Assembly (NCBI GenBank): GCA_021295965.1
Contig: JAGWBI010000005.1
Location: 85,763 to 129,460 of the forward strand
DNA from: Dehalococcoidia bacterium
GTDB lineage: Bacteria > Chloroflexota > Dehalococcoidia > Lucifugimonadales > UBA3495
Direction of reading: 5' to 3'
Length of the DNA: 43,698 bases
Shown here in pieces: positions 13,196 through 26,012 of the stretch (position 1 is the first letter of the stretch; every line of letters starts with the position of its first letter). Position numbers and translations under genes: made by a program. The notes under the pieces were generated by a model. That model was not told where the DNA came from, ran no database searches, and was given only the letters and a program-made list of their open reading frames with translations.

Positions 13196-14764
13196 ATGCC
13201 CGAGACACCTGAACCGACGCCGCCCGAACGGGAGGACAACCTCGGCAGCCTGGAGGCCAATCTGGCCAGCCGGCGAGTCAAGCTATCCCGCATCCGCGAA
13301 CGCGGCATAGATCCCTACCCACCCCGCGTCCAGCGCGATTGCACCGCCGCCGAAGCGGTGGCCCGGTTCGAGGAAGCCGAAACCGCCGGCCAAACTGAAA
13401 GCGTAGCCGGTCTCCATCTGGCCGGCCGCATCGTCTCCATGCGCGTGATGGGCCGTGCCGCCTTCCTGGACCTGCGCGATACTTCAGGCGTGGTGCAGGC
13501 CATGTTCCGCCAGAACGTCCTCGGCGACGAATACGCCCTGCTGCAAGACCTGGACCTGGGCGACTTCCTGGGCGTAACCGGCGACATGATGCGCACCCGC
13601 ACCGGCCAGGCAACCATCGAGGCCCACTCGCTAACCATCCTCGCCAAGGGGATGCGCCCCCTGCCCGAGAAGTGGCACGGCCTCCGCGACGTGGAAACCC
13701 GCTACCGCCAGCGTTACCTGGACCTCATCGCCAACCCGGAGATCGCCGATACCTTCGTCCAGCGCAGCCGCATCATCAGCGGCATCCGCCGGTTTTTTGA
13801 CAACCGGGGCTTCATCGAAGTGGACACCCCTATCCTGGTGCCCATTCCCGCCGGCGCCCACGCCCGCCCGTTCATCACACATCACAATGCCTTGGACGAG
13901 CAGTTGTACCTCCGCATCGCCACCGAGCTGTACCTGAAACGCCTCATCGTGGGCGGCCTGGACAAGGTGTACGAAATTGGCCGTGTCTTCCGCAACGAGG
14001 GCATTGACCAGGACCACAATCCCGAATTCACCCTCCTTGAGTCCTACGAAGCCTACGCCGACTACAACGCGGTGATGGAAATGGTGGAGTCGCTGGTGTC
14101 GTCTCTGGCCCAGGGCGTTCATGGCAGTATGCAGATCGCCATGGGCGACGACATCATCGACTTCACGCCGCCCTGGCCTCGGCTGTTTCTCCGGGAGGAA
14201 CTGCTGCGTCGCAGCGGAGTCGATATCGAGGACTATCCCGACGCGGAGTCGCTCACCCGCATATGCTGGGATCTCGGCCTGGAACCCGGTCCCCGAGAGG
14301 CTCGGGGCCGCCTCATCGACAAGATGCTGTCCGTGTACGTGGAGCCGCACCTGATCCAGCCTTCCTTCCTCACGGATTACCCCGAAGATATGTCGCCCCT
14401 GGCCAAGGGCCATCCCGATAAGCCCGGCTACGTGGAACGGTTTGAGGCTTTCGCCGCCGGCATGGAGATCGCCAACTCCTACACCGAGTTGAACGACCCC
14501 GAGGTTCAGCGCGCCCGTTTCGCATCCCAGGAACACCAGCGCGATGCCTACGGCGATGAGGAGGCCGACCGCACCGACGCCGACTTCCTCACCGCCCTGG
14601 AATACGGTATGCCGCCCACCGGCGGCCTGGGCATCGGCATCGACCGTCTCGTGATGCTCCTCACCGGCCAGTCCACCATCCGCGATGTGTTACTATTCCC
14701 GCAAATGCGCTCCCTCTCCAACGACGGCGGAAACGCGGCAACGCCGGATGATGCGACGGGATGA
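13196..14764 (+). CDS. lysS: Lysyl-tRNA synthetase, class II
   Basis: A 522-residue class II LysRS. A proline/glutamate-rich start is followed by the OB-fold anticodon-binding domain (VAGLHLAGRIVSMRVMGRAAF, about 62-82). The catalytic domain shows motif 1 (IRRFFDNRGFIEVDTPILVP), motif 2 (YEIGRVFRNEGIDQDHNPEF) and motif 3 (GLGIGIDRLVMLLTGQ). It charges tRNA-Lys. ATG 13196 was selected because it gives the normal family length. Its stop codon region overlaps an ATG (14761) in the following Uma2 gene, so the aminoacyl-tRNA synthetase and nuclease-like genes may be transcribed together. Confidence 0.96.
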   Translation: MPETPEPTPPEREDNLGSLEANLASRRVKLSRIRERGIDPYPPRVQRDCTAAEAVARFEEAETAGQTESVAGLHLAGRIVSMRVMGRAAFLDLRDTSGVVQAMFRQNVLGDEYALLQDLDLGDFLGVTGDMMRTRTGQATIEAHSLTILAKGMRPLPEKWHGLRDVETRYRQRYLDLIANPEIADTFVQRSRIISGIRRFFDNRGFIEVDTPILVPIPAGAHARPFITHHNALDEQLYLRIATELYLKRLIVGGLDKVYEIGRVFRNEGIDQDHNPEFTLLESYEAYADYNAVMEMVESLVSSLAQGVHGSMQIAMGDDIIDFTPPWPRLFLREELLRRSGVDIEDYPDAESLTRICWDLGLEPGPREARGRLIDKMLSVYVEPHLIQPSFLTDYPEDMSPLAKGHPDKPGYVERFEAFAAGMEIANSYTELNDPEVQRARFASQEHQRDAYGDEEADRTDADFLTALEYGMPPTGGLGIGIDRLVMLLTGQSTIRDVLLFPQMRSLSNDGGNAATPDDATG

Positions 14765-14769
14765 TTGCC

Positions 14770-15540
14770 ATGACGACGACTGCCTCGGCGAGCAAGCCGG
14801 AAATAGTAGAAGAAACTGCGCCATCGGTCTCCAATACGGCGGATATTGGGCTGTTTCCTATCAAACTGCGGCTCCCGGAGACGGTAATAGCGGCCGGCCC
14901 CGACGCTTGCGTCAACTGGTTCTGGGACCTTTGCCTCGCCAACCACGAATCCGTTTGGCAAATGGAACTCACCGCTGACGGAGTACTGGAACTGATGCCG
15001 CCCACCAATGACCCTTCCGATCTCCATGAAAATAGAACCTCCAGCAAGGTGTATGTCTGGGATGAAGAACAGGATTTCCCCGGCGTCCCAACCGGCCCCA
15101 CCTCTGGGTATCGCTTGCCCAACGGCGCGCTACGTGTCCCTGACGCGGCATGGACAGCGTTGGAAAATATCCGCTCCAGGCAGCCCGGCGATACCGGAGG
15201 GCGGCCCTACTGTCCCGATTTCGTCGTAGAAATCCGCTCCGCCTCACAATCGCGCCCGTCGGGTTTGACCGAACTGCTCAACAAGATGCAGGAATACATG
15301 GACAACGGCGCCAAGCTCGCTTGGCTCATCGACCCCATCGAGCGCGCCGTCCGCATCTACCGCGCCGGCGCTGCCGAACCGGAGTTCCTTGCCGACCCGG
15401 AGACCCTGGACGGTGAGGACGTGCTGCCCGGCTTCGTCTTTGAGGTGCGGCGGCTGATCTTTGACTTGGTGATTTCCCATGACGACAACTGCCCCGTCTG
15501 CCACTGTTGCGGCACAGGCGTCACCACCGCAGGCCCCTGA
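14770..15540 (+). CDS. Uma2-family (DUF820) nuclease, copy 1
   Basis: A protein of about 256 residues with the Uma2/DUF820 PD-(D/E)XK-like nuclease core: GYRLPNGALRVPDAAW, CPDFVVEIRSASQSRPSGLTELLNKMQEYMDNG and KLAWLIDP in order. Uma2 proteins are putative restriction-like endonucleases; their biological role is unproven. It is the first of three tandem copies. Relative to copy 2 the 3' end lacks 7 nt (near 15471), so the frame runs on for about 60 bases into copy 2 and gives an unrelated tail, SHDDNCPVCHCCGTG. ATG 14770 was chosen because copies 2 and 3 start with the same MTTTA; ATG 14761, overlapping the lysS stop, is an alternative. Confidence 0.85.
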   Translation: MTTTASASKPEIVEETAPSVSNTADIGLFPIKLRLPETVIAAGPDACVNWFWDLCLANHESVWQMELTADGVLELMPPTNDPSDLHENRTSSKVYVWDEEQDFPGVPTGPTSGYRLPNGALRVPDAAWTALENIRSRQPGDTGGRPYCPDFVVEIRSASQSRPSGLTELLNKMQEYMDNGAKLAWLIDPIERAVRIYRAGAAEPEFLADPETLDGEDVLPGFVFEVRRLIFDLVISHDDNCPVCHCCGTGVTTAGP

Positions 15541-16195
15541 TGCCGGCAGCATCAACCCGTTCCCCGTCAAACTGCGGCTGCCCCATGCTGTGATAACCGC
15601 CGGCGCCGATGCCTGCGAGAAGTGGTTTGTGGACTTGACCTTGGCCAACGAAGATGCTCCTTGGGTCATGGAACTGAACTCCGAAGGCGAACTGGAGTTG
15701 ACGATGCCGCCTTACGAACCGTCGGATGAACACGAAGGAGAGTTTTTCGGAGAATTGCGCCAGTGGAATATCAGCCGGGGCCGCCCCGGTGTCGCAACCG
15801 CCTCTGGAGGCGCTTATCGGCTGCCCAACGGAGCCATTCGTTACCCGGACGCGGCATGGACACACGCTGATAACCTGCACCCGCGTCCGGCAGATCCGCC
15901 TCGCGCTCGCCGTTACTGTCCCGATTTCGTAGTGGAAATCCGTTCCACTTCACAATCGCGTCCCTCAGATCTGACCGAACTGCTCAACAAGATGCAGGAA
16001 TACATGGACAACGGCGCCAAGCTCGCTTGGCTCATCGACCCCCTGGAGCGCGCCGTCCGCATCTACCGCGCCGGCGCTGCCGAACCGGAGTTCCTGGCCG
16101 ACCCGGAGACCCTGGACGGTGAGGACGTGCTGCCCGGCTTCGTCTTTGAGGTGCGGCGGCTGATCTTTGACTTGGGGCGGAGTGATTTCCCATGA
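15479..16195 (+). CDS. Uma2-family (DUF820) nuclease, copy 2
   Basis: A 238-residue Uma2/DUF820 protein. The low-complexity N-terminus MTTTAPSATVAAQ is shared nearly base-for-base with copy 3. The core has PYEPSDEHEGEFFG, AYRLPNGAIRYPDAAW (first acidic residue), CPDFVVEIRSTSQSRPSD and LLNKMQEYMDNGAKLAWLIDP. The first and last thirds are almost identical to the neighbouring copies, while residues about 55-150 vary most, including the segment GELRQWNISRGRPGVATASG. It overlaps copy 1 by 62 bases and copy 3 by four bases, so translation is coupled along the array. Confidence 0.88.
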   Translation: MTTTAPSATVAAQASPPQAPDAGSINPFPVKLRLPHAVITAGADACEKWFVDLTLANEDAPWVMELNSEGELELTMPPYEPSDEHEGEFFGELRQWNISRGRPGVATASGGAYRLPNGAIRYPDAAWTHADNLHPRPADPPRARRYCPDFVVEIRSTSQSRPSDLTELLNKMQEYMDNGAKLAWLIDPLERAVRIYRAGAAEPEFLADPETLDGEDVLPGFVFEVRRLIFDLGRSDFP

Positions 16196-16893
16196 CGACA
16201 ACTGCCCCGTCTGCCACTGTTGCGGCACAGGCGCCACCACCGCAGGCCCCTGATGCCGGCAGCGTCAACCCGTTCCCCGTCAAACTGCGGCTGCCCCATG
16301 CTGTGATAACCGCCGGCGCCGATGCCTGCGAAGAGTGGGTCGTGGATTTGACACTGGCAAATCACGATTCGCCCTACCGGATCGAACTCAACGCCAGCGG
16401 AGAACTGGAGCTGACGATGCCGCCCTACTATCCGGCCGACGAACAGGAAGGTGAAATGTACGGGAAGCTGTACATTTGGAACATCGCTAACGGGCGTCTC
16501 GGAACTGCAACAACCGCATCGAGCGCTTACCGTCTGCCCAACGGCGCCATCCGTTACCCTGATGCGGCCTGGACGGTGGCGGCCAACGTTCGTCCCCGGC
16601 CTGCCGAACCACCCCGCGCCCGACCCTACTGCCCCGATTTCGTCGTAGAAATCCGCTCCGCATCCCAATCCCGCCCGTCTGATTTGGCCGAACTGCTCAA
16701 CAAGATGCAGGAATACATGGACAACGGCGCCAAGCTGGGCTGGCTCATCGACCCCCTGGAGCGCACCGTCCGCATCTACCGCGCCGGCGCCGACGAACCG
16801 GAGTTCCTTGCCGACCCGGAGACCCTGGACGGTGAGGACGTGCTGCCCGGCTTCGTCTTTGAGGTTCGCAATCTGATATTTGACTTGGTTTAG
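16192..16893 (+). CDS. Uma2-family (DUF820) nuclease, copy 3
   Basis: A 233-residue Uma2/DUF820 protein with the same layout as copy 2: MTTTAPSATVAAQAPPPQ, then PYYPADEQEGEMYG, AYRLPNGAIRYPDAAW, CPDFVVEIRSASQSRPSD and LLNKMQEYMDNGAKLGWLIDP. It ends normally at FDLV without the tail seen in copy 1. Compared with copy 2 the changes concentrate in the middle, while about 130 nt at the 5' end and a long 3' stretch are nearly unchanged, which points to recent duplication or gene conversion. serS starts 13 bp downstream. Confidence 0.88.
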   Translation: MTTTAPSATVAAQAPPPQAPDAGSVNPFPVKLRLPHAVITAGADACEEWVVDLTLANHDSPYRIELNASGELELTMPPYYPADEQEGEMYGKLYIWNIANGRLGTATTASSAYRLPNGAIRYPDAAWTVAANVRPRPAEPPRARPYCPDFVVEIRSASQSRPSDLAELLNKMQEYMDNGAKLGWLIDPLERTVRIYRAGADEPEFLADPETLDGEDVLPGFVFEVRNLIFDLV

Positions 16894-18187: not shown

Positions 18188-18205
18188 GTGGAGGAGATAA
18201 CCGCC

Positions 18206-18841
18206 ATGACGGACTATGCGCCCAATACCGGCCCGTCCACGCGGGCCGGTAAACGTCAAGAGTACGAAGTCCTGCTGGTCAGGGACTATGAATACCCTGG
18301 CTACGCGGTGTTCTGCCCCTCACTGGGTTGCGCCAGCCAGGGCGATACCCGCGAGGAAGCGCTGGAAATGATTGCCGACGCCATAGCAATGTACCTGGAC
18401 AGCTACGCCGAAGACGGCTTGGAACCTCCCTTCACACCCGACGCCATGGCTCCCACCGTCGCGGAATACCAGGCCGAGGGCTACGGCATCGAAATAGCCA
18501 CTGTGCTTCCGGCGGATTGGGACGCCATAATCGCCGACTGTAGCGCTGCGATTCAGCGCAATCCCAATGACGCCAAAGCGTACTTAACGAGAGGCGGCAC
18601 TTATCTCAACAAAAGGGAATACGACCGAGCCATCGCCGATTACACCACCGTTATATCCCTTACCCCCGACGACGCCGAAGCTTATTGCAGACGAGGCGAC
18701 GCTTATCGGAGCAGTGGGAAATATAACCGAGCCATCGCCGATTATGACGCCACACTGCGACGCGACCCGTACTACGATATTGCCTACGTCAGCCTGGAAA
18801 TGGCTTACGTTGCGTTATGGAAACGTGAGAAGAGCATCTGA
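18206..18841 (+). CDS. HicB-domain/TPR fusion protein
   Basis: A 211-residue fusion. Residues about 19-100 form a HicB-like antitoxin domain (YEVLLVRDYEYPGYAVFC, SLGCASQGDTREEALEMI, then an amphipathic helix). Residues about 102-205 hold tetratricopeptide repeats: DWDAIIADCSAAIQRNPNDA, AYLTRGGTYLNKREYDRAIA and AYCRRGDAYRSSGKYNRAIA show the 34-residue pattern with conserved W/Y, G, Y and A/P positions. TPR regions bind peptides or proteins. ATG 18206 follows GGAGGAGA at the right distance. The gene overlaps the following HicA-like gene by one base (TGATG). An antitoxin replaced at its C-terminus by a protein-binding TPR region instead of a DNA-binding domain is unusual. Confidence 0.82.
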   Translation: MTDYAPNTGPSTRAGKRQEYEVLLVRDYEYPGYAVFCPSLGCASQGDTREEALEMIADAIAMYLDSYAEDGLEPPFTPDAMAPTVAEYQAEGYGIEIATVLPADWDAIIADCSAAIQRNPNDAKAYLTRGGTYLNKREYDRAIADYTTVISLTPDDAEAYCRRGDAYRSSGKYNRAIADYDATLRRDPYYDIAYVSLEMAYVALWKREKSI

Positions 18842-19104
18842 TGCCGCCTCGCGTACCAGGTTTTAGCGTCGCAGACGTTCTGCGCGCTTTCCACAACGAT
18901 GGGTGGCAAATCGGGGAAGGCGGCAAGCACACGAAAGCAGAAAAGGACGGTCGGTCAGTGCCTATCACACGACATCATGGTAGAGACATTCTCCCCAACA
19001 CCATGGGCAGCATCATCGTGCAAGCCGGCTGGACCGTAAGTGAATTCCGCAACCTGGTCCGTGGTCGCAATCGCGACGGTAGCCGCCACAGCCGCAATCG
19101 CTAA
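18841..19104 (+). CDS. HicA-like toxin partner of the HicB-TPR protein
   Basis: An 87-residue HicA-family protein: FSVADVLRAFHNDGWQIGEGGKHTKAEKDGRSVPITRHHGRDILPNTMGSIIVQAGW follows the family layout (written here in outline). The catalytic histidine is at GGKHTK instead of the more common GSHH, and HHGRDILPNT matches the usual second strand. The tail RGRNRDGSRHSRNR is basic. It starts on the TGATG overlap with the HicB-TPR gene, so antitoxin precedes toxin, the reverse of canonical hicAB. Predicted mRNA interferase. Confidence 0.78.
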   Translation: MPPRVPGFSVADVLRAFHNDGWQIGEGGKHTKAEKDGRSVPITRHHGRDILPNTMGSIIVQAGWTVSEFRNLVRGRNRDGSRHSRNR

Positions 19105-19138: not shown

Positions 19139-19954
19139 ATGTCCGGTATCTGGCCCGACAACATCCACTGCGTCGCCCTCATCACCTTCGATGTGGACGG
19201 TATCACCTCCTGGCTGAACCGCAACCCCGATTTCATCAACTACCCCAGCCTGCTCTCCATGGCCGAGTACGGCCCCAGCGTGGCTACGCCGCGCATCCTG
19301 GACATGCTGGACGCCCAGGGCATCCCGGGTAGTTTCTACATCCCCGGCATGGTTGCCGAAACCCACCCCGACCTGGTGCGGGAAATCGCCGGACGGGGCC
19401 ATGAAGTGGCCCACCACGGTTACATCCACGAACCGCCGGCCACTATGACGCCCGAGAAGGAGGAAGAAGTCCTCATCAAAGGCATCAGCATCCTGGGGGA
19501 CCTGACCGGCGAGGCTCCCGTCGGCTATCGCTCGCCAAGCTGGGAACTCAGCCCGGTTTCGCTGGACCTGCTGGCCAAGCACAACTTCCGCTACGACAGC
19601 AGCCTGATGGGCGACGACGCTCCCTATTTCGTATCCGGCGGCGACCCGCCCCGGCGCATGGTGGAGCTCCCCATCCACTGGCTATTGGACGACGCTCCCC
19701 ATTTCGCCTACGCGCCCTCCGCCAACCGCCTCGGCCCCATGCGCAACCCCGACGAGGTTTTCGACAGCTGGGCCGCCGAGTTTCGCGGTATCTACCGCTA
19801 CGGCCGCTGCTTCAACCTCACCATGCACCCCCAGTACATCGGCCGGCCCGGTCGCCTGCTGATGCTGGAACGGCTGATTGAATACATCAAGACCTTCCCC
19901 GGCGTCCGCTTCATGCGATCCGTGGACGTTGCCGAAATGTGGGAAAATAGCTAA
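19139..19954 (+). CDS. Polysaccharide deacetylase-family (NodB-like) hydrolase
   Basis: A 271-residue carbohydrate esterase 4-like protein. The metal site is visible: ITFDVDG (residues about 15-21, catalytic Asp pair) and HHGYIHEPP (His-x3-His-like, about 98-106); the later motifs are YRSPSWELSP (122-131) and the closing LTMHPQYIGRPGRL. No signal peptide is seen, so it is probably cytoplasmic, like the PuuE/allantoinase-like branch that hydrolyses small amides rather than cell-wall sugars. It immediately precedes the nitrile hydratase locus, so an amide or ureide substrate is plausible but is inference. GGAGA ribosome site before ATG 19139. Confidence 0.85.
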   Translation: MSGIWPDNIHCVALITFDVDGITSWLNRNPDFINYPSLLSMAEYGPSVATPRILDMLDAQGIPGSFYIPGMVAETHPDLVREIAGRGHEVAHHGYIHEPPATMTPEKEEEVLIKGISILGDLTGEAPVGYRSPSWELSPVSLDLLAKHNFRYDSSLMGDDAPYFVSGGDPPRRMVELPIHWLLDDAPHFAYAPSANRLGPMRNPDEVFDSWAAEFRGIYRYGRCFNLTMHPQYIGRPGRLLMLERLIEYIKTFPGVRFMRSVDVAEMWENS

Positions 19955-19958
19955 TCCA

Positions 19959-20072
19959 CTGTCATTGCGAGGAGCGTAGTCCGCCTGCGGCGGATGGCAA
20001 TCCCGTTCCCGCGGTGCAACACTCCCACGGTGCAAAAGCAACGAGATTGCCACGCTGCGCTCGCAGTGACAG
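19959..20072. repeat. Inverted-repeat element (GTCATTGCGAG family)
   Basis: CTGTCATTGCGAGG opens the element and CTCGCAGTGACAG closes it, giving 13-bp terminal inverted repeats with one mismatch across 114 bp. The interior holds GGATGGCAATCCCG and AGATTGCCACGCTGCG, which also pair in part. It looks like a non-coding palindromic element of the kind spread through many genomes. It sits between the deacetylase stop and the first nitrile hydratase gene, 19 bp before that gene's ATG. Confidence 0.65.
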
Positions 20073-20090
20073 TTGAGGAGTACAACCACC

Positions 20091-20371
20091 ATGCCCGCAG
20101 TACACGACCGGGGCGGCTGGCCCGACGACACGCCCATCGACCACACCGAGCACGAATACAGCGACTGGGTCAGGTCCTGGGCGCTCAGGGTATCCGCACC
20201 ACCGACGAAATGCGCCGCGCCATTGAAAGCCTGCCGCCGGAACGCTACGAAGCCCTGTCCTATTACGAAAAGTGGACCGCCGCCCTGGAAATCCTGCTGA
20301 TAGAGAAGGGGATACTGACCGAAGCAGAGATTGATGCCAAGGCGGCGGAGTTACGGGAGCACGGGCTATAA
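20091..20371 (+). pseudogene. Nitrile hydratase beta-subunit N-terminal domain gene, frameshifted
   Basis: From ATG 20091 one frame reads MPAVHDRGGWPDDTPIDHTE to EYSDW, which matches the start of nitrile hydratase beta N-terminal/accessory proteins. Then a different frame continues with VLGAQGIRTTDEMRRAIESL, YYEKWTAALEILLIEKGILT to the stop at 20371, again matching the family. The break lies at about 20165-20180. Alignment to the family's usual length suggests about 22 nt are missing. The gene cannot give a complete product without frameshifting or sequence correction. A truncated second copy of its last 100 bp lies at 21243-21344. The rest of the enzyme (beta C-domain at 22454, alpha at 25398) is intact. 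Confidence 0.78.
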
Positions 20372-20429
20372 TTGTGAGTGCCCACAACGATTTGGCTGGG
20401 CAATTCAGGTAGCAAGCAGGGAGCATAAA

Positions 20430-20789
20430 ATGACCACGTCGGAATCGACACAACAGAAAGTCGCAGGCAACCATCGGGCTCCGGCCGACCGTGCGGAGTT
20501 CGAGCAGCTTGCCGACGAGTGGGAACGCGACCGGCCGCGCGGCCTAGACCTGGCAGCAATGGCAATGCACCCTGCCTACCAAAGCATTATAGACATGGGC
20601 CTCCCGGCAGTGCCGTGGTTGCTGGCGAGGCTGGAACGACGACCAGGCCATTGGTTCCTTGCCCTGAACCGGATAACCGGAGCGCAGCCCGTTCCGCCAG
20701 AGAGTGAGGGCAATCTCAAAGCTATGGCAGGAGATTGGTTGCACTGGGGCAAGCAAAATGGATACGAGTGGTCAGATTACGTGGATTGA
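20430..20789 (+). CDS. Unknown small protein, partner of DUF7689-like gene
   Basis: A 119-residue protein. The conserved-looking parts are FEQLADEWERDRP, MHPAYQSIIDMGLPAVPWLL, HWFLALNRITG and the C-terminal WLHWGKQNGYEWSDY. I recall similar small proteins next to DUF7689-type genes, but know no function. It overlaps the next gene by 32 bases, so the two are translated together and probably act together, possibly as a toxin-antitoxin-like or defence-like pair; this is inference. The cassette sits between the broken nitrile hydratase beta-N gene and a duplicated fragment of it, so it looks inserted. GGGAG lies before ATG 20430. Confidence 0.65.
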   Translation: MTTSESTQQKVAGNHRAPADRAEFEQLADEWERDRPRGLDLAAMAMHPAYQSIIDMGLPAVPWLLARLERRPGHWFLALNRITGAQPVPPESEGNLKAMAGDWLHWGKQNGYEWSDYVD

Positions 20790-21216
20790 AGACCAGTTTC
20801 CTCAACTGGCAGTGGAAGGCTATGAAATCACCAGCGATCCAACCGATGATTACAACTGCATCGCTTATGCAGCAGGAGACACCACTGCTTGGTGGAGTCA
20901 TATCCTCGGCTACCGCTGGCCCAACGCCAGCCGCACTCCCTCAATCGATAGCCTCATCCAAGTGTTCAACGGGCTCGGTTTTGAGCTTTGTGATGATGCG
21001 CACGAAGAGCCTGGATTTGAGAAAATAGCGCTCTACGCAAAAAAGGGCCACTGGACTCACGCGGCTGTACAGCTGCCGGGCGGAGCCTGGAGCAGCAAGC
21101 TTGGCCCCGATGAAGACATCGGACATCGATCTCCTGAATCATTGAGCGGTGAGTCATACGGGCAAGTCCACTGCACAATGCGACGACCCAGGCCGGAAAT
21201 CGAACCCCCGCGGTAA
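20758..21216 (+). CDS. DUF7689-like protein
   Basis: A 152-residue protein. Recognisable family-like segments are YEITSDPTDDYNCIAYAAGD (about 21-40), WWSHILGYRWP, the central LGFELCDDAHEEPGFEKIALY and the C-terminal HAAVQLPGGAWSSKLGPDEDIGH. The pattern YNCIA, W-W, EKIALY, HAA-QL-W-SK-G is what I associate with the DUF7689 family, whose function is unknown. A conserved Cys (YNCIA) and His (THAA) could form a Cys-His active site like that of papain-fold hydrolases, but that is only a suggestion. Start at ATG 20758 overlaps the previous gene by 32 bases. Confidence 0.65.
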   Translation: MDTSGQITWIEDQFPQLAVEGYEITSDPTDDYNCIAYAAGDTTAWWSHILGYRWPNASRTPSIDSLIQVFNGLGFELCDDAHEEPGFEKIALYAKKGHWTHAAVQLPGGAWSSKLGPDEDIGHRSPESLSGESYGQVHCTMRRPRPEIEPPR

Positions 21217-21221
21217 CCACC

Positions 21222-21344
21222 ATGCCAACCGTCCAAAACAACAAATGGACCGCCGCCCTGGAAATCCTGCTGATTGAAAAGGGCATACTGACTGCCGAGG
21301 AAATCGACGCCAAAGCCGCCCAGTTGCGGCGGCAAGGGCTCTGA
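21222..21344 (+). pseudogene. Duplicated fragment of nitrile hydratase beta N-domain gene
   Basis: A 40-codon open frame whose residues 9-40 (WTAALEILLIEKGILTAEEI, then DAKAAQLRRQGL) repeat the C-terminal end of the beta N-domain at 20271-20371. The first 28 nt of the duplicated DNA are identical, the rest differ at scattered positions. The eight residues before it (MPTVQNNK) are not from the family. Together with the frameshifted copy at 20091 it brackets the 20430-21216 gene pair, so the pair sits between two copies of the same ~100-bp sequence. Confidence 0.75.
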
Positions 21345-21365
21345 TGCCGGCTTGGAACAAGTTAC

Positions 21366-22409
21366 GTGACACTCATGTGGGACGCACTTGGACTACCGCG
21401 CGAAACCAACGTGGATGGCCAATCTTGGAATCCCAACGGAATCTCGACTTTCTTTCATCAATCGAGTTTCCAGGATTACATCTATTGGGACGCCATCTAT
21501 TGGCGTACAGGTTACTTGGATCGTCAGGTCGGTGAGCACCGTGACCGGTTTGTCACAGAACTCGACCAGCGGTTCCACGTGGCAACTTTGGAAGACCGCG
21601 ACGAACGGGGGCGAATCTTGGCACGTTACTCTGACAAGAAGTCGCTTTGGTATCAGTGCGCGCGCTCGTTCGGTATGCGCGACCACATGATCATCGCCTT
21701 CGAAACTTCACGGACGCGACCCATGGATTCTGTTAATTTTCGAGACAAGCACGAGGTACGCCGGAATTACTACTCAACCAACCCAGAAGACAGAATGAAG
21801 GCCCAGACGGCTTTAGCGACTTGGACGCTCGGAAATGATCAAGTAAGCACAACCGATATTGAAGCTGTACTTGGGCACCCTTACTATGAGATTCTAGACC
21901 TACCGATTAATGACGCCCGGCCGGACATCGACAGCTCGGTAGCAACAGCCACTGACGATATTATCAACGAAGCAGTTCGATTGATGAAAACCCTACATGT
22001 ACGTCCGTACGCGTTCTGGATATCCGAGACTGAGCTTATGATGGCGGCTGCCAGGCCAAGTATAGGGTCAGGGCCATGGACGCGACAAGAGTTGGAACAG
22101 CAAGCTCCGTTGTTAGTGTCAGAGGCGGAAGGGGTAATGCGCCGAATCCCTAACAATCTAAGAGAACAGTCGAACAGAATTCGAGTAGCCTACGAGCCAA
22201 ACTACAGTTGGAACGAAATCATTGAGGCAGACGCCAAGCTGGTCCGTTGGCTGGAACGATTCCCCGATTATCAAGAACTACTAGAATCGGAAGGATATAC
22301 TAACGACGATAGAGAATTGCTCCACCGACTGATACGCCTCAGTCGATTCGGATACTGCTACGCTAATGTGGTAGGGGATTGGGCGTTTCGCTATCCGGAC
22401 GATAATTAG
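21366..22409 (+). CDS. Unknown protein, 347 residues
   Basis: A 347-residue (or 344 from ATG 21375) soluble-looking protein that I cannot assign. It begins LPRETNVDGQSWNPNGISTF, has a central acidic/aromatic region and a C-terminal part RIRVAYEPNYSWNEIIEADAKLV. No signal peptide, membrane helix or clear catalytic motif is seen. By eye its base composition is lower in GC (near 50%) than the flanking genes (about 62-65%), and its codon use is mixed, which suggests recent transfer. It lies between the nitrile hydratase beta-N and beta-C genes. Start GTG 21366 is assumed; no good ribosome site decides. Confidence 0.6.
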   Translation: MTLMWDALGLPRETNVDGQSWNPNGISTFFHQSSFQDYIYWDAIYWRTGYLDRQVGEHRDRFVTELDQRFHVATLEDRDERGRILARYSDKKSLWYQCARSFGMRDHMIIAFETSRTRPMDSVNFRDKHEVRRNYYSTNPEDRMKAQTALATWTLGNDQVSTTDIEAVLGHPYYEILDLPINDARPDIDSSVATATDDIINEAVRLMKTLHVRPYAFWISETELMMAAARPSIGSGPWTRQELEQQAPLLVSEAEGVMRRIPNNLREQSNRIRVAYEPNYSWNEIIEADAKLVRWLERFPDYQELLESEGYTNDDRELLHRLIRLSRFGYCYANVVGDWAFRYPDDN

Positions 22410-22453
22410 TCAGTAAATGTACAACTTCCTTCCGTAAGTCAGGCCTGATACTA

Positions 22454-22765
22454 ATGAACACCGCAACCGCCTCCCCCGACGAACCCATCCGCTACCCCGA
22501 CGGCGCCACCGTCCGCGTCCGCTCTGGCTCGCCGGCCCATCACTTCCGCACGCCGGCCTACATCCAGGGGCATACCGGCGTTGTCGATGCCCTCTGCGGC
22601 GTTTATCCGAACCCGGAGTCGCTGGCCCACGGGGGCGACGGCCTGCCCCGCCAGCCTCTCTATCGCATCCGCCTGCGCCAAACCGACCTCTGGTCCGACT
22701 ACGCCGGCAACCCGGCGGACACCCTGCTGGTGGATGTGTACCAGCACTGGCTGGAACCGGCCTGA
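22454..22765 (+). CDS. Nitrile hydratase beta-subunit C-terminal (SH3-like) domain
   Basis: A 103-residue protein equal to the C-terminal SH3-like barrel of nitrile hydratase beta, encoded separately as in thiocyanate hydrolase. The pattern includes RVRSGSPAHHFRTPAYIQGH, the VGVVDALCGVYPNPESLAHG-like loop, and the closing PLYRIRLRQTDLW, then VDVYQHWLEPA. This domain packs on the alpha subunit near the metal site. The matching N-terminal domain gene (20091) is frameshifted, so assembly of a complete beta is doubtful. It is followed 48 bp later by the first PLP-fold gene. Confidence 0.85.
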   Translation: MNTATASPDEPIRYPDGATVRVRSGSPAHHFRTPAYIQGHTGVVDALCGVYPNPESLAHGGDGLPRQPLYRIRLRQTDLWSDYAGNPADTLLVDVYQHWLEPA

Positions 22766-22813
22766 TTCGTGCTATCCTGCCGGCCAGCATCGCAATTGAG
22801 AGGGACATGAGGA

Positions 22814-23989
22814 ATGGAGCGACCGATATTTCAGCCTGTTGGCGCACCCACAGAGGAACTGGATACGCCGGCCCTGGTGGTTGATCTGGGGATAATGGCG
22901 CAGAACATTGCGGTCCTGCACAACGCTGTTCGCGCCTCTGACGCAGGGTCAGCCACTGGCAGCGTTCGAGTTCGCCCTCACGTCTCTTGCCACGGCTGCC
23001 CTGAAATCGCCCGGTTTCAGCTGGCCGCCGAAGGCAACGCCGGCGGCGTGGCGGTTGGTTCTCTGGGCGAAGCCGAAGCATTTGCCGCCGCCGGTGAAGA
23101 CACTTCCACCGGGGATGAGTCCGCGTCACCTTCCCGCGCAATCGACGACATACTGATAGCGGGACGGGTGGTCACCGCTGCCAAGATTCGCCGACTGATC
23201 TCCCTGGCCGGTCGAATCACGCTGAGCGTGGCAGTTGACGACCCCCGCAATGTTGGTGACCTATCGGAGGCTGCACAGGCCGCCGGCGTCACTCTGGGCG
23301 TATTGGTGGACATAGACGCCGGCTACGGGTTTGGCGGCGTTGCGCCCGGCCGCGATGCCGTTGACCTGGCGCGAACGGTTGCGGACGCGCCCGGATTGTC
23401 CTTCAACGGGATAATGGCCTACGAAGGCCCGTTGCCCATAACCGAACGCGCCGAACTGGAGGCCGAAACCCGTAGTCGTCTGCAGCCGGTACTGGATACG
23501 CGAAGCGACCTGGAGCAGGCCGGTATGGAGGTTGCGACGGTAAGCGCGGGCAGCACTTACAACTATGACATAGTCTCACAACTGTCGGGAATCACTGAGG
23601 TTCAGGCCGGGGTGTATCCCCTGATGGATGTGGAGACCTTGCGAATTCGTCCGGAATTGCAACGGGCGGCCACAGTCCTGGCAACGGTCATCAGCCATCC
23701 GATAGCGGGCCGGGCGGTACTGGACGCCGGTCACAAAACCACCGGGCCCGATTTCGGTGTACCCGTCCTGGAAGGGTTTCCGGGGGCCGTCGCCACCAGG
23801 TTCAGCGCGGAACACGGCATTATGGATTTGGACGGGCCGGCCACCGAGCAGTTGATGCCCAATGACAAAGTCCACCTGGTTCCGTATAACCTTGCGCTGT
23901 GCGTCAACCAGTATGACTACATACGCGCCGTGCGGGACGGCAAGCTGGTAGGGTATTGGTCCGTTGCCGGTCGGGGACGATTGGGGTAG
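22814..23989 (+). CDS. D-threonine aldolase/D-serine dehydratase-like protein lacking PLP Lys
   Basis: A 391-residue protein of the alanine-racemase-fold family (DSD1/D-threonine aldolase-like): ELDTPALVVDLGIMAQNI (about 14-31), RPHVSCHGCPEIARFQLAA (54-72) and the C-terminal VRDGKLVGYWSVAGRGRL. The position that in these enzymes is the PLP-binding Lys (usual RPHxKTHK) reads Ser58. The usual C-terminal H-x-C/D metal ligands (P-x-H-x-C/D) read N359 and A361 in VPYNLALCVN. An insertion of about 14 residues (GEDTSTGDESASPS region) is also present. It may therefore be a non-catalytic or altered-function paralogue of the gene at 24211. It lies between nitrile hydratase subunit genes. Confidence 0.82.
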   Translation: MERPIFQPVGAPTEELDTPALVVDLGIMAQNIAVLHNAVRASDAGSATGSVRVRPHVSCHGCPEIARFQLAAEGNAGGVAVGSLGEAEAFAAAGEDTSTGDESASPSRAIDDILIAGRVVTAAKIRRLISLAGRITLSVAVDDPRNVGDLSEAAQAAGVTLGVLVDIDAGYGFGGVAPGRDAVDLARTVADAPGLSFNGIMAYEGPLPITERAELEAETRSRLQPVLDTRSDLEQAGMEVATVSAGSTYNYDIVSQLSGITEVQAGVYPLMDVETLRIRPELQRAATVLATVISHPIAGRAVLDAGHKTTGPDFGVPVLEGFPGAVATRFSAEHGIMDLDGPATEQLMPNDKVHLVPYNLALCVNQYDYIRAVRDGKLVGYWSVAGRGRLG

Positions 23990-24029
23990 TTTCTCATTGC
24001 CGCAACTTCCTAAAGCCTGTTGACAAATT

Positions 24030-24130
24030 CCGTCATTCCCGCGAAAGCAGGAATCCAGCGAGTGTAAAATCTGGTTGACGTTCCTATCGCAGAGACCTTT
24101 CCTGGGCTCCTGCTTTCGCAGGAACGACGG
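24030..24130. repeat. Inverted-repeat element (GTCATTCCCGCG family)
   Basis: CCGTCATTCCCGCGAAAGCA opens and CTGCTTTCGCAGGAACGACGG (last part) closes a roughly 101-bp element with imperfect inverted ends. The same opening occurs at 34512. It fills most of the 221-bp gap between the two PLP-fold genes and encodes nothing. Confidence 0.6.
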
Positions 24131-24210
24131 TGTCTTTTCAAAATGCCAACACGCTCTAACGTTCACGGCTAGATTCAATTTAGATATTCGGCAACCTCGG
24201 AGGTACGTCC

Positions 24211-25314
24211 ATGCAGGAAGCGTATGAACCCCAACCCGGCACTCCGGTTGAGGAACTGGATACTCCATGTCTGATCCTGGACATGGATGCCCTGGATCAC
24301 AATATGGACGTGATCGCCGACTTCTATGGAGAACGCCACAGCAAGTTGCGTGGACATAGCAAGAATCACAAAAGCCCGGCCTTGGCTCTCCGGCAGATCC
24401 AGCGCGGCGGTACCGTCGGCGGGGTGTGCGCCGCCAAGGTTGCCGAGGCTGAGGTGATGGTGCAGGGCGGAGTGGCCAGCGTATTCGTCACCAGCGAGGT
24501 GGTTGCCCCACCCAAGATCGCCCGCCTCTGCGCCCTGGCAGACCAGGCCGAGGTCCTGGTGGCCTGCGAAAGCGAAGCCAATGCCCGCGACCTTTCCCAG
24601 GCTGCCACTGCCCAGGGAGTAAACCTGGGCGTGGTCATTGAGCAGGAAACCGGACTGCTCCGATGCGGTGTGCAAGAGGTGGAACCCGGCCTGGCTTTGG
24701 CCCGGACCATCGATTCACTGCCCGGACTCTCCCTGAAAGGCGTGATGAGCCACCAGATGATGTCGGAACCTTCCTCAGACCGGGAGGACCGGGTCACCGA
24801 GGCCCACCGTCTCATCCAGCCGGTTCTGGACCTTCGGGAAGCCATGGTTGCCGACGGGCTGCCGGTGGAAATCGTATCGACCGGCGAAACCTGGAGCTAC
24901 GATATCGCCGGAGAGATGCCTGAAGTTACCGAAATTCAGGGCGGCTCATACCTGGTGATGGAAACCTCGTACGAATATATCCCTGATTTTCACTTTGCCG
25001 GCAAGGTGCTGAGCACCATTGTCAGCGTCCCACGTCAGGGAACGGCGATAGGCGACGCTGGCGCTCGTGCGGTGTGCGGCATCAAGGGGTTGCCGCGAGT
25101 GGAAGGCCGCCCCGGGGTTGAAGCCGTTGCTATGGACACCGACCGCACCGTGTTTCAGGTGGCGGAGGGAGCCGAACTCGCCGTTGGCGACCAGGTAATA
25201 CTCCTTCCCGGCCAGCAGGACGCCATGGTCAGCCGCTGGGATCGTTTCATCGGCATACGGGACGGAATGGTGGAGGCGGTTTGGGATATCGAGGCACGGG
25301 GATGTCACAACTAG
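24211..25314 (+). CDS. D-threonine aldolase/D-serine dehydratase-like protein
   Basis: A 367-residue alanine-racemase-fold protein related to the gene at 22814: ELDTPCLILDMDALDHNMDV, then LRGHSKNHKSPALALRQ where Lys51 sits at the PLP-binding position, then VIEQETGLLRCGVQ and VSTGETWSYDIAG. The usual metal-binding His near the C-terminus reads Gln335 in LLPGQQDAMVSRWD, though D337 is kept. PLP chemistry on a D-amino acid or related beta-hydroxy compound is therefore likely but the exact reaction is unclear. GGAGG lies eight bases upstream of ATG. The nitrile hydratase alpha gene follows 83 bp downstream. Confidence 0.85.
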   Translation: MQEAYEPQPGTPVEELDTPCLILDMDALDHNMDVIADFYGERHSKLRGHSKNHKSPALALRQIQRGGTVGGVCAAKVAEAEVMVQGGVASVFVTSEVVAPPKIARLCALADQAEVLVACESEANARDLSQAATAQGVNLGVVIEQETGLLRCGVQEVEPGLALARTIDSLPGLSLKGVMSHQMMSEPSSDREDRVTEAHRLIQPVLDLREAMVADGLPVEIVSTGETWSYDIAGEMPEVTEIQGGSYLVMETSYEYIPDFHFAGKVLSTIVSVPRQGTAIGDAGARAVCGIKGLPRVEGRPGVEAVAMDTDRTVFQVAEGAELAVGDQVILLPGQQDAMVSRWDRFIGIRDGMVEAVWDIEARGCHN

Positions 25315-25397
25315 GGTTTTATTTCCGAAGGCCACCGCTCGCCAACGCATCTAGTCCTGATCCACAACCGCTCCAATAGAACATTGGGGAGAGACCT

Positions 25398-26012
25398 ATG
25401 ACCGCTACCCACACCGTTGACCACATCCACGACCAGCCCATGAGCGAAGTCGCCCTGCGCTCCGTCGCCATTGAGGCCCTGCTGGCCGAGAAGGGGCTGC
25501 TGACCGCCGACCAGGTGCAGGAGCAAGTGGACCGGATGGACCGCCGCACTCCCGCCGACGGCGCTCGGGTCGTAGCCCGCGCCTGGGCCGACGACGGCTT
25601 CAAGGCCCGTCTGCTGAATGACTCCCGGTCCGCCCTGGCTGAAATGGGGATCCGGCTTCCCGAAGAAACTCCGCACCTAACCGTGGTGGAAAACACCGAA
25701 AATGTGCATCACGTGGTGGTCTGCACATTGTGCTCGTGCTATCCGCGGATGCTGCTGGGCCGCCCGCCGGACTGGTACAAGAGCCTGGCCTACCGCGCCC
25801 GCGCCGTCCGCGATCCCCGGGGCGTGATGGCTGAGTTCGGCGCCGAGCCTCCCGCCGATGCCGAGGTCCGCGTGCTGGATAGCACCGCCGATATGCGCTA
25901 CCTGGTCCTGCCGCGCCGGCCGGCCGGAACTGAGGGAATGAGCGAGGAAGAACTCGCCGGGCTGGTCACCCGGGACAGCATGATCGGCGTGACCGGCGCG
26001 CTACAACCGTAA
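25398..26012 (+). CDS. Nitrile hydratase alpha subunit, cobalt type
   Basis: A 204-residue nitrile hydratase alpha (or thiocyanate hydrolase gamma-like) subunit. The metal-binding claw VCTLCSCYP (Cys109, Cys112, Ser113, Cys114) is intact, and the Thr in CTLCSC marks the cobalt form. It is followed by RPPDWYKSLAYRARAVRDPRGVM and a C-terminal PADAEVRVLDSTADMRYLVLP segment. The N-terminus up to residue 60 is a helical region (VAIEALLAEKGLLTADQV) typical of the family. It hydrates nitriles to amides together with a beta subunit, which in this locus is encoded in two pieces, one broken. GGGAGAG ribosome site at the right distance. A dedicated activator gene was not seen. Confidence 0.92.
   Translation: MTATHTVDHIHDQPMSEVALRSVAIEALLAEKGLLTADQVQEQVDRMDRRTPADGARVVARAWADDGFKARLLNDSRSALAEMGIRLPEETPHLTVVENTENVHHVVVCTLCSCYPRMLLGRPPDWYKSLAYRARAVRDPRGVMAEFGAEPPADAEVRVLDSTADMRYLVLPRRPAGTEGMSEEELAGLVTRDSMIGVTGALQP

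Follow-up and report, generated by a model that had tools for sequence, protein, structure and literature searches.

The D-threonine aldolase AxDTA forms a dimer of head-to-tail subunits, has a metal and partner-facing loops, and carries all the residues on one chain. Here we describe two adjacent genes, PLP1 and PLP2, whose products are pyridoxal 5′-phosphate (PLP)-fold proteins homologous over nearly their full length to D-threonine aldolase (4V15, 7DIB) and β-hydroxyaspartate aldolase (BhcC, 6QKB), and in which, unlike in AxDTA, these residues are split over two genes. They lie among the genes of a nitrile hydratase (NHase) in the window, a 43,698-nucleotide stretch of contig 41 in the 3.23-Mb draft genome of a SAR202-type Dehalococcoidia bacterium (G000). 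We consider it probable that the two proteins became an obligate heterodimer by reciprocal loss, with a single composite active site, and that this arrangement is kept across much of the order.

Serine palmitoyltransferase unites an active subunit and a dead paralogue (LCB1/LCB2) in one functional heteromer; it and the comparable heteromers of trypanosomes have other folds. The trypanosome cases are deoxyhypusine synthase and AdoMetDC, described as an active subunit with a dead paralogue in the excerpted texts of PMC3663545 and PMC5201418. As far as these excerpts go, the proposed pair resembles LCB1/LCB2 and the trypanosome enzymes in joining an active to a dead paralogue, and differs from them in being bacterial and of the D-threonine aldolase-type family. 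Such heteromers are therefore a known kind, and the literature matches listed showed no precedent in this fold class: none described a heterodimeric D-threonine aldolase-type enzyme or this pair in SAR202, which is weak evidence, as subscription papers lay outside the coverage.

For the nitrile hydratase, the closest described system is ScNHase of Streptomyces canus, encoded by AnhD-AnhE-AnhA. In the excerpted text of PMC7329996, AnhD corresponds to the N-terminus of the beta subunit and AnhE to its C-terminus, there is no activator gene, and the activity of Holo-AnhEA is 4.17% of that of Holo-AnhDEA. Compared with this excerpt, the window has the same betaN-betaC-alpha order, a predicted cobalt enzyme and likewise no activator gene found; it differs in having a NodB-like gene upstream, an insertion hotspot and the PLP pair between its genes, and a broken betaN. 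The toyocamycin nitrile hydratase ToyJKL also has three subunits (PMC12648386, in excerpt). With it and thiocyanate hydrolase (2DD4) the window enzyme shares the three-subunit kind; the substrates differ, and the window alpha protein passes the nitrile hydratase model and not the thiocyanate hydrolase model. The nitrile hydratase is thus of a known kind, and the hotspot is interesting but ordinary.

Active-site residues divided between two tandem genes

Domains of the window proteins were assigned by Pfam and NCBIfam profile searches with curated cut-offs, and all the genes named in a preliminary description of this DNA were found in place. PLP1 (22814..23989), a fold-III paralogue, is called A and PLP2 (24211..25314) is called B; both lie on the + strand and match Ala_racemase_N and D-ser_dehydrat. 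The numbers Lys59, Lys297, Glu322 and His323 are those of AxDTA. Where all 31 single-gene relatives have the Schiff-base lysine, A reads RPHVSCHG (22973-22996), while B keeps the lysine in HSKNHK (24355-24372). The partner-facing loops, GLKS and INDEH in the AxDTA chain, show the opposite pattern. The motifs DxGxK and xEHG are present in A (DAGHKT, 23723-23740; SAEHG, 23804-23818) and absent from B, which has degenerate loops (DAGARA, 25054-25071; DTDRT, 25135-25149, where relatives have xEH), so that they are divided between the two genes. The altered active sites that had been reported for two PLP-fold paralogues are therefore real, and they are altered in different places.

The same division was seen in the wider sample. 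A match in another genome was counted as A or B according to which query scored better, and fetched sequences were confirmed on the tree. Residues were counted in 129 sequences (48 A, 50 B and 31 single-gene relatives, AxDTA among them); three fragments were left out of the alignment, and two distant D-serine-dehydratase-type sequences that fall in the A clade and keep the lysine and triad (L129, L134) were left out of the counts. The barrel lysine, Lys59, is kept in 1/48 A, 50/50 B and 31/31 relatives. The other 47 A proteins have S, E, T, G, D, A or N at this position, seven different substitutes, as would be expected at an unconstrained site, and the loops of B vary likewise. The triad Lys297/Glu322/His323 is complete in all 48 A and in 28 of the 31 relatives, but in only 2 of the 50 B.

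Mean entropy at the barrel sites and at the loops, respectively, was 2.28 and 0.53 in A, 0.70 and 1.85 in B, and 0.98 and 1.31 in the relatives. Against random site sets, the loops of A were more conserved (P 0.00002) and its barrel sites more variable (P 0.039), while the barrel sites of B were more conserved (P 0.013) and its loops more variable (P 0.052); the combined A-minus-B contrast, barrel versus partner-facing, was reached by 0 of 100,000 random sets, in a test that ignores phylogeny and treats related sequences, whose counts are not independent events, as if they were.

The order-level sample comprised 99 genomes including G000, with 50 in the window's family and 14 in its genus. The pair is held by 64 of them. 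A occurs alone in one (G045, at a contig end) and B alone in none; in 60 of the 64 the genes stand in tandem, A then B, with a median gap of 64 bp. Outside the order, in a phylum-level sample of 301 genomes from which 20 places were fetched and which was not an exhaustive survey, the matches listed look like scattered single genes, except for a divergent couple in G290. On a tree of 115 sequences, from which 14 sequences of eight loci had been thinned out, A and B each form a clade (SH-like approximate likelihood ratio test, SH-aLRT, 99.8 and 100).

From these observed residues, co-occurrences, tandem order and clades we infer a heterodimer, since A lacks the lysine and has the trans-acting residues and B is the reverse. 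B would contribute the lysine-bearing PLP barrel, and its site would be completed from the partner subunit by the two beta-domain loops of A. The mirror-image site, formed by the barrel of A and the loops of B, would be dead, leaving one working site per dimer. A possible earlier state is seen in G060 (L112, contig C5, 8022-10283), where both copies keep the lysine and the triad. Its B is basal in the B clade (SH-aLRT 75), and this pair may represent the state before the losses.

Several observations weigh against this proposal, beginning with the neglect of phylogeny in the random-site test, in which some of the single contrasts are also weak (P 0.052 for the B loops, 0.039 for the A barrel). 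The losses are incomplete: Glu322 is kept in 11/50 B and His323 in 24/50, and A keeps the barrel residues Thr233 in 37/48 and Tyr187 in 23/48, so that weak PLP binding by A is possible. The conserved loops of A could serve another ligand. A and B as sister clades have an SH-aLRT of 30.8, which is no support, and the grouping of A+B with L133 has 95. As the A of G060 is not basal, the G060 pair may have regained the residues or kept them late rather than being an intermediate. The pair is not in tandem in four of the 64 genomes (G029, G059, G082 and G094; in G094, A is at a contig end). Finally, an AlphaFold model of A built with ten genus sequences was poor (mean predicted local distance difference test score, pLDDT, 54.6) and was judged unusable.

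These points leave room for two separate proteins, with A a homodimer that lost PLP and turned its loops to a new ligand, B an enzyme in its own right, and the tandem a mere result of duplication. Such a history is compatible with the data at the level of the monomers. A is under purifying selection, with a ratio of nonsynonymous to synonymous substitution rates (dN/dS) between the window and nine genus relatives of 0.14-0.18 (0.07-0.12 for B), and it has invariant residues outside the loops. However, in AxDTA the loops that are invariant in A work in trans, and B has lost just these; moreover, A and B are apart in one contig-end case only and co-occur even where they are unlinked (G029, G059, G082). 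We consider separate proteins rather unlikely, and prefer the heterodimer.

Placement and predicted chemistry of the pair

The pair sits in the nitrile hydratase locus in 11 of the 14 genus genomes: ten with alpha on the contig, and G005, in which the contig ends inside B. It is absent from the other three, G003, G007 and G013. Among the 53 pair holders outside the genus, 32 also hold alpha, which is on another contig in 28 and on the same contig more than 450 kb away in four; the distances of the pair and of the NodB-like gene (below) from alpha were tallied by hand, and contig breaks could conceal a case. In related genera, the neighbours of the pair are MetH, FTHFS, Asp/Glu racemase, CoA-transferases and ECH, mostly on the opposite strand. 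The A genes of the window's genus group on the tree with A of related genera (L104, L105, L123), which suggests relocation of the pair into the nitrile hydratase locus within the genus rather than import. PLP1 and PLP2 would then be an ancient pair of genes, usually found on their own, that has changed its place.

The preliminary description had instead placed the PLP genes and the nitrile hydratase in one pathway. In such a pathway the PLP proteins would make or use an amino acid whose nitrile or amide is handled by the hydratase. The arrangement within the genus favours this: in the ten genomes with alpha on the contig the pair is flanked by betaC and alpha and shares their strand, A and B are about 78-92% identical among the genus loci, and the gaps of 48 and 83 bp would suit co-transcription. 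By the proposed test, that the PLP genes should adjoin nitrile hydratase in neighbouring genomes, the pathway fails beyond the genus, while the genus itself retains the arrangement (11/14). None of the 59 non-genus nitrile hydratase loci has a PLP match in the DNA examined, none of the 32 other genomes holding both the pair and alpha has them together, G003 of the same genus has a nitrile hydratase cluster without the pair, and in related genera the pair stands alone between MetH, FTHFS, CoA-transferases and other genes. A single pathway, unseen outside the window's genus, was therefore rejected as unlikely.

The residues of the pair also bear on its reaction. The metal ligands His347/Asp349 of AxDTA are Asn/Ala in PLP1 and Gln/Asp in PLP2, and, unlike in AxDTA, the metal histidine is gone in 47/50 B (34 Gln, 11 Tyr, 1 Met and 1 gap). 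All 50 B have His in place of Tyr187, the residue that stacks on PLP. The column of AxDTA His193 is a gap in 32/50 B, with no His listed for the rest, but this says little because His is found in only 3/31 relatives too. Both PLP proteins miss the cut-off of the BhcC equivalog (197 and 240 versus 690 bits). The absence of the metal histidine from B, together with the change of Tyr187 to His, makes metal-assisted cleavage of the D-threonine aldolase type unlikely for the pair. The likely alternative is a metal-independent PLP reaction of racemase or eliminase type at an amino acid's alpha carbon, in which Lys51 of B would stand on one face and the His, Glu and Lys of A on the other. The neighbouring genes in related genera do not settle the reaction.

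The nitrile hydratase cluster and its NodB-like neighbour

The nitrile hydratase genes were compared in 70 loci fetched by relatedness to the window alpha gene, whose closest named relatives are metagenome-assembled genomes (MAGs) of Dehalococcoidia, SAR202 and Chloroflexi. The AnhA-like alpha gene (25398..26012, +; PF02979, 269 bits) carries the cobalt-type claw CTLCSC at 25722-25739, intact as originally claimed, and the claw is present in 70/70 loci. Residues 57-108 of alpha match the NHLP leader model TIGR03793 of ribosomally synthesised and post-translationally modified peptides (RiPPs) at 74.7 bits (cut-off 50.9); the alpha subunit of nitrile hydratase is kin to NHLP RiPP leaders.

The beta subunit is indeed encoded by two genes, one for each domain. 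The AnhD-like betaN (20091..20371, +) matches NHase_beta_N (PF21006) within 19994-20371 at 58.6 bits against a Pfam cut-off of 21.5, and the AnhE-like betaC (22454..22765, +) matches PF02211 at 74.6 bits. In the 70 loci, classified with alpha left out, the layout was split in 38, fused in 21, betaC without a betaN found in nine and without betaC in two; L069 and L098 are ambiguous in this classification, having two nitrile hydratase-like sets each. As 38/70 loci are split and AnhD-AnhE-AnhA of Streptomyces canus has been characterised, a split beta is an ordinary arrangement.

The excerpted text of PMC7587978 describes Arg52 and Arg157 of the Pseudonocardia nitrile hydratase as essential and as bonding the modified cysteines. 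DEMRR of betaN, at 20204 in the window, aligns with Arg52 of 3QXE (the alignment was made with the betaN of L038, which has the same motif), and the arginine of HFRTP in betaC (22541-22555) aligns with beta Arg149 of 3QXE, which we take as the counterpart of Arg157. The two window arginines are likely counterparts of the two essential beta arginines. In the proposed three-gene cobalt enzyme, alpha would carry the metal, betaN and betaC would each bring one of these arginines, and a nitrile would be hydrated to an amide. The single PF21006 match in the own genome is the window betaN itself, so that no separate activator of this family was found there. The same genome gave 13 matches to amidase families, of which some are fragments of a single gene, and these amidases could process the amide further.

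The split had been likened to that of thiocyanate hydrolase, which holds for the architecture but not for the identity of the enzyme. A thiocyanate hydrolase would share the split beta, and the subunits do show similarity to those of 2DD4. However, alpha reaches 256.7 bits with the NCBIfam nitrile hydratase model TIGR01323 (nitrile_alph; cut-off 249.85) and falls short of the thiocyanate hydrolase gamma model TIGR03887 (187.2 versus 291.45), and the best PDB match of alpha, betaN (tested with that of L038) and betaC is in each case a nitrile hydratase. Thiocyanate hydrolase was rejected on the NCBIfam cut-offs and is very unlikely; by its profile matches the window cluster is an ordinary three-gene, split-beta (AnhDEA-type) cobalt nitrile hydratase.

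The gene upstream (19139..19954, +) encodes a NodB-like hydrolase (polysaccharide deacetylase/PuuE-like; PF01522, 61.6 bits) with the motifs TFDVD and HHGYIH. Its protein reaches the cut-off of none of the named NCBIfam equivalogs that it matches, those for allantoinase PuuE and NodB included (TIGR03212, 86.1 versus 424.6 bits; TIGR04243, 39.8 versus 240). Its orthologue, defined as the best match with E below 1e-70, occurs together with alpha in 40 family genomes, and in 31 of these the two genes lie within 10 kb of each other. Among the nine exceptions, NodB sits at a contig end in G026 and G043, the alpha of G013 is a distant one (52%), and the two genes are separate in G007, G015, G018, G021, G022 and G033. 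The G007 locus (L039) has an alpha of 79% identity; the 20 kb examined contain neither betaC nor the PLP pair, and the best NodB match is about 530 kb away. Elsewhere in the order NodB is within 10 kb of alpha in 0/7 genomes, and it also adjoins fused-beta nitrile hydratases in L084 and L085, MAGs labelled Binatia and Desulfurellaceae, at 44% identity. The recurrence of NodB-betaN-betaC-alpha across the window's family agrees with the earlier assignment of the hydrolase, first in the locus, to the nitrile hydratase genes. Being kept near alpha across the family and found beside the hydratases of L084 and L085, NodB is probably functionally linked to nitrile hydratase.

The betaN-betaC gap and what the locus means

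The reading frame of betaN is interrupted in the window: the frame opened by the ATG at 20091 is not the one that holds the conserved part. L038 has 22 nt more in the matched stretch, and betaN is open in all ten genus relatives with betaC nearby (the eleventh genus locus, L039, has no betaC in its stretch). The gene appears to have been broken by an out-of-frame deletion, either a real mutation or an assembly fault. A 108-bp stretch of its tail (20265-20372) is repeated directly at 21238-21345 (+; 78% identical) as a headless betaN tail, collinear with L041 into the gene that follows. The repeat likely marks a recombination junction.

Three genes, all on the + strand, fill the window's gap between betaN and betaC. 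Of the proposed DUF7689-type pair, one member is a DUF7689 protein (20764..21216; PF24738, 122 bits in 20704-21216), while its small neighbour (20430..20789) has no Pfam or NCBIfam family match in 20331-20789; homologues of the latter occur in the same gap of L032 and upstream of NodB in L040. The third is an orphan gene of 347 aa (21366..22409), which has no Pfam match and a sole NCBIfam match below cut-off (11.9 versus 700 bits). It is the gene described as unknown and low in GC, and at 0.511 its GC content is the lowest of nine genes. It is present in 2/99 genomes (G000, G011), both times in this gap. A single-sequence AlphaFold model of it had a mean pLDDT of 34.3 and was judged unusable.

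Insertions had been suspected in the locus, and the gap is in fact filled in five of 11 genus loci (the window, L032, L035, L036, L041) and empty in six (L033, L034, L037, L038, L040, L079); in L040 an insert sits between NodB and betaN instead. The cargo includes DUF7689 with the small gene (window, L032), the orphan gene (window, L041), a PDC-M09A-like gene of a candidate defence family (L032, 5307-6314; L035, 4695-5705), HNH (L036) and PIN (L041). PADLOC gave no match for the window's orphan gene, 119-aa gene or DUF7689, and a defence role for the window's own cargo was rejected. Cargo genes would be gained and lost at this gap, a hotspot in which the DUF7689 pair and the orphan gene seem to be passengers. 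Because the second betaN tail and orphan gene are collinear with L041 and the DUF7689 pair matches L032, we read the window's gap as two cargo alleles joined by recombination.

Just before NodB, at 18188-19104, lie a gene for a tetratricopeptide repeat protein with a HicB-like antitoxin domain (PF15919) and an 87-aa gene, which we take to be HicA-like. Among the genus loci compared, similar genes occur in the serS-NodB gap of L041 and L035, and this gap may be a second variable site. Further upstream (14761-16893) are three tandem open frames of 259, 238 and 233 aa with near-identical stretches, presumably Uma2-type genes.

With insertions and broken frames this close, the changes in the PLP genes might be part of a general decay of the locus. 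Besides the broken betaN, an internal stop interrupts the orphan gene of G011, the DUF7689 of L032 is spread over two frames, and a MITE-like interspersed repeat (24010..24140, no strand assigned; inverted arms 24030-24058 and 24102-24130), with 48 matches in its own genome, itself included, lies between the PLP genes. Pseudogenisation of the pair is nevertheless contradicted by its conservation: PLP1 and PLP2 are open, occur order-wide, have invariant sites and show dN/dS of 0.07-0.18, and we regard it as scarcely credible.

The comparison tells a conserved nitrile hydratase cluster apart from its passengers and places an insertion hotspot inside a metabolic gene cluster. For annotation it carries a warning, as both PLP genes score as relatives of D-threonine aldolase and BhcC, yet neither should work alone. 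If the heterodimer proposal is true, the pair would be a natural record of a homodimer becoming an obligate heterodimer, and since there are complete single genes, a pair with both sets (G060) and descendants in which the sets are divided, the path would be testable with real proteins.

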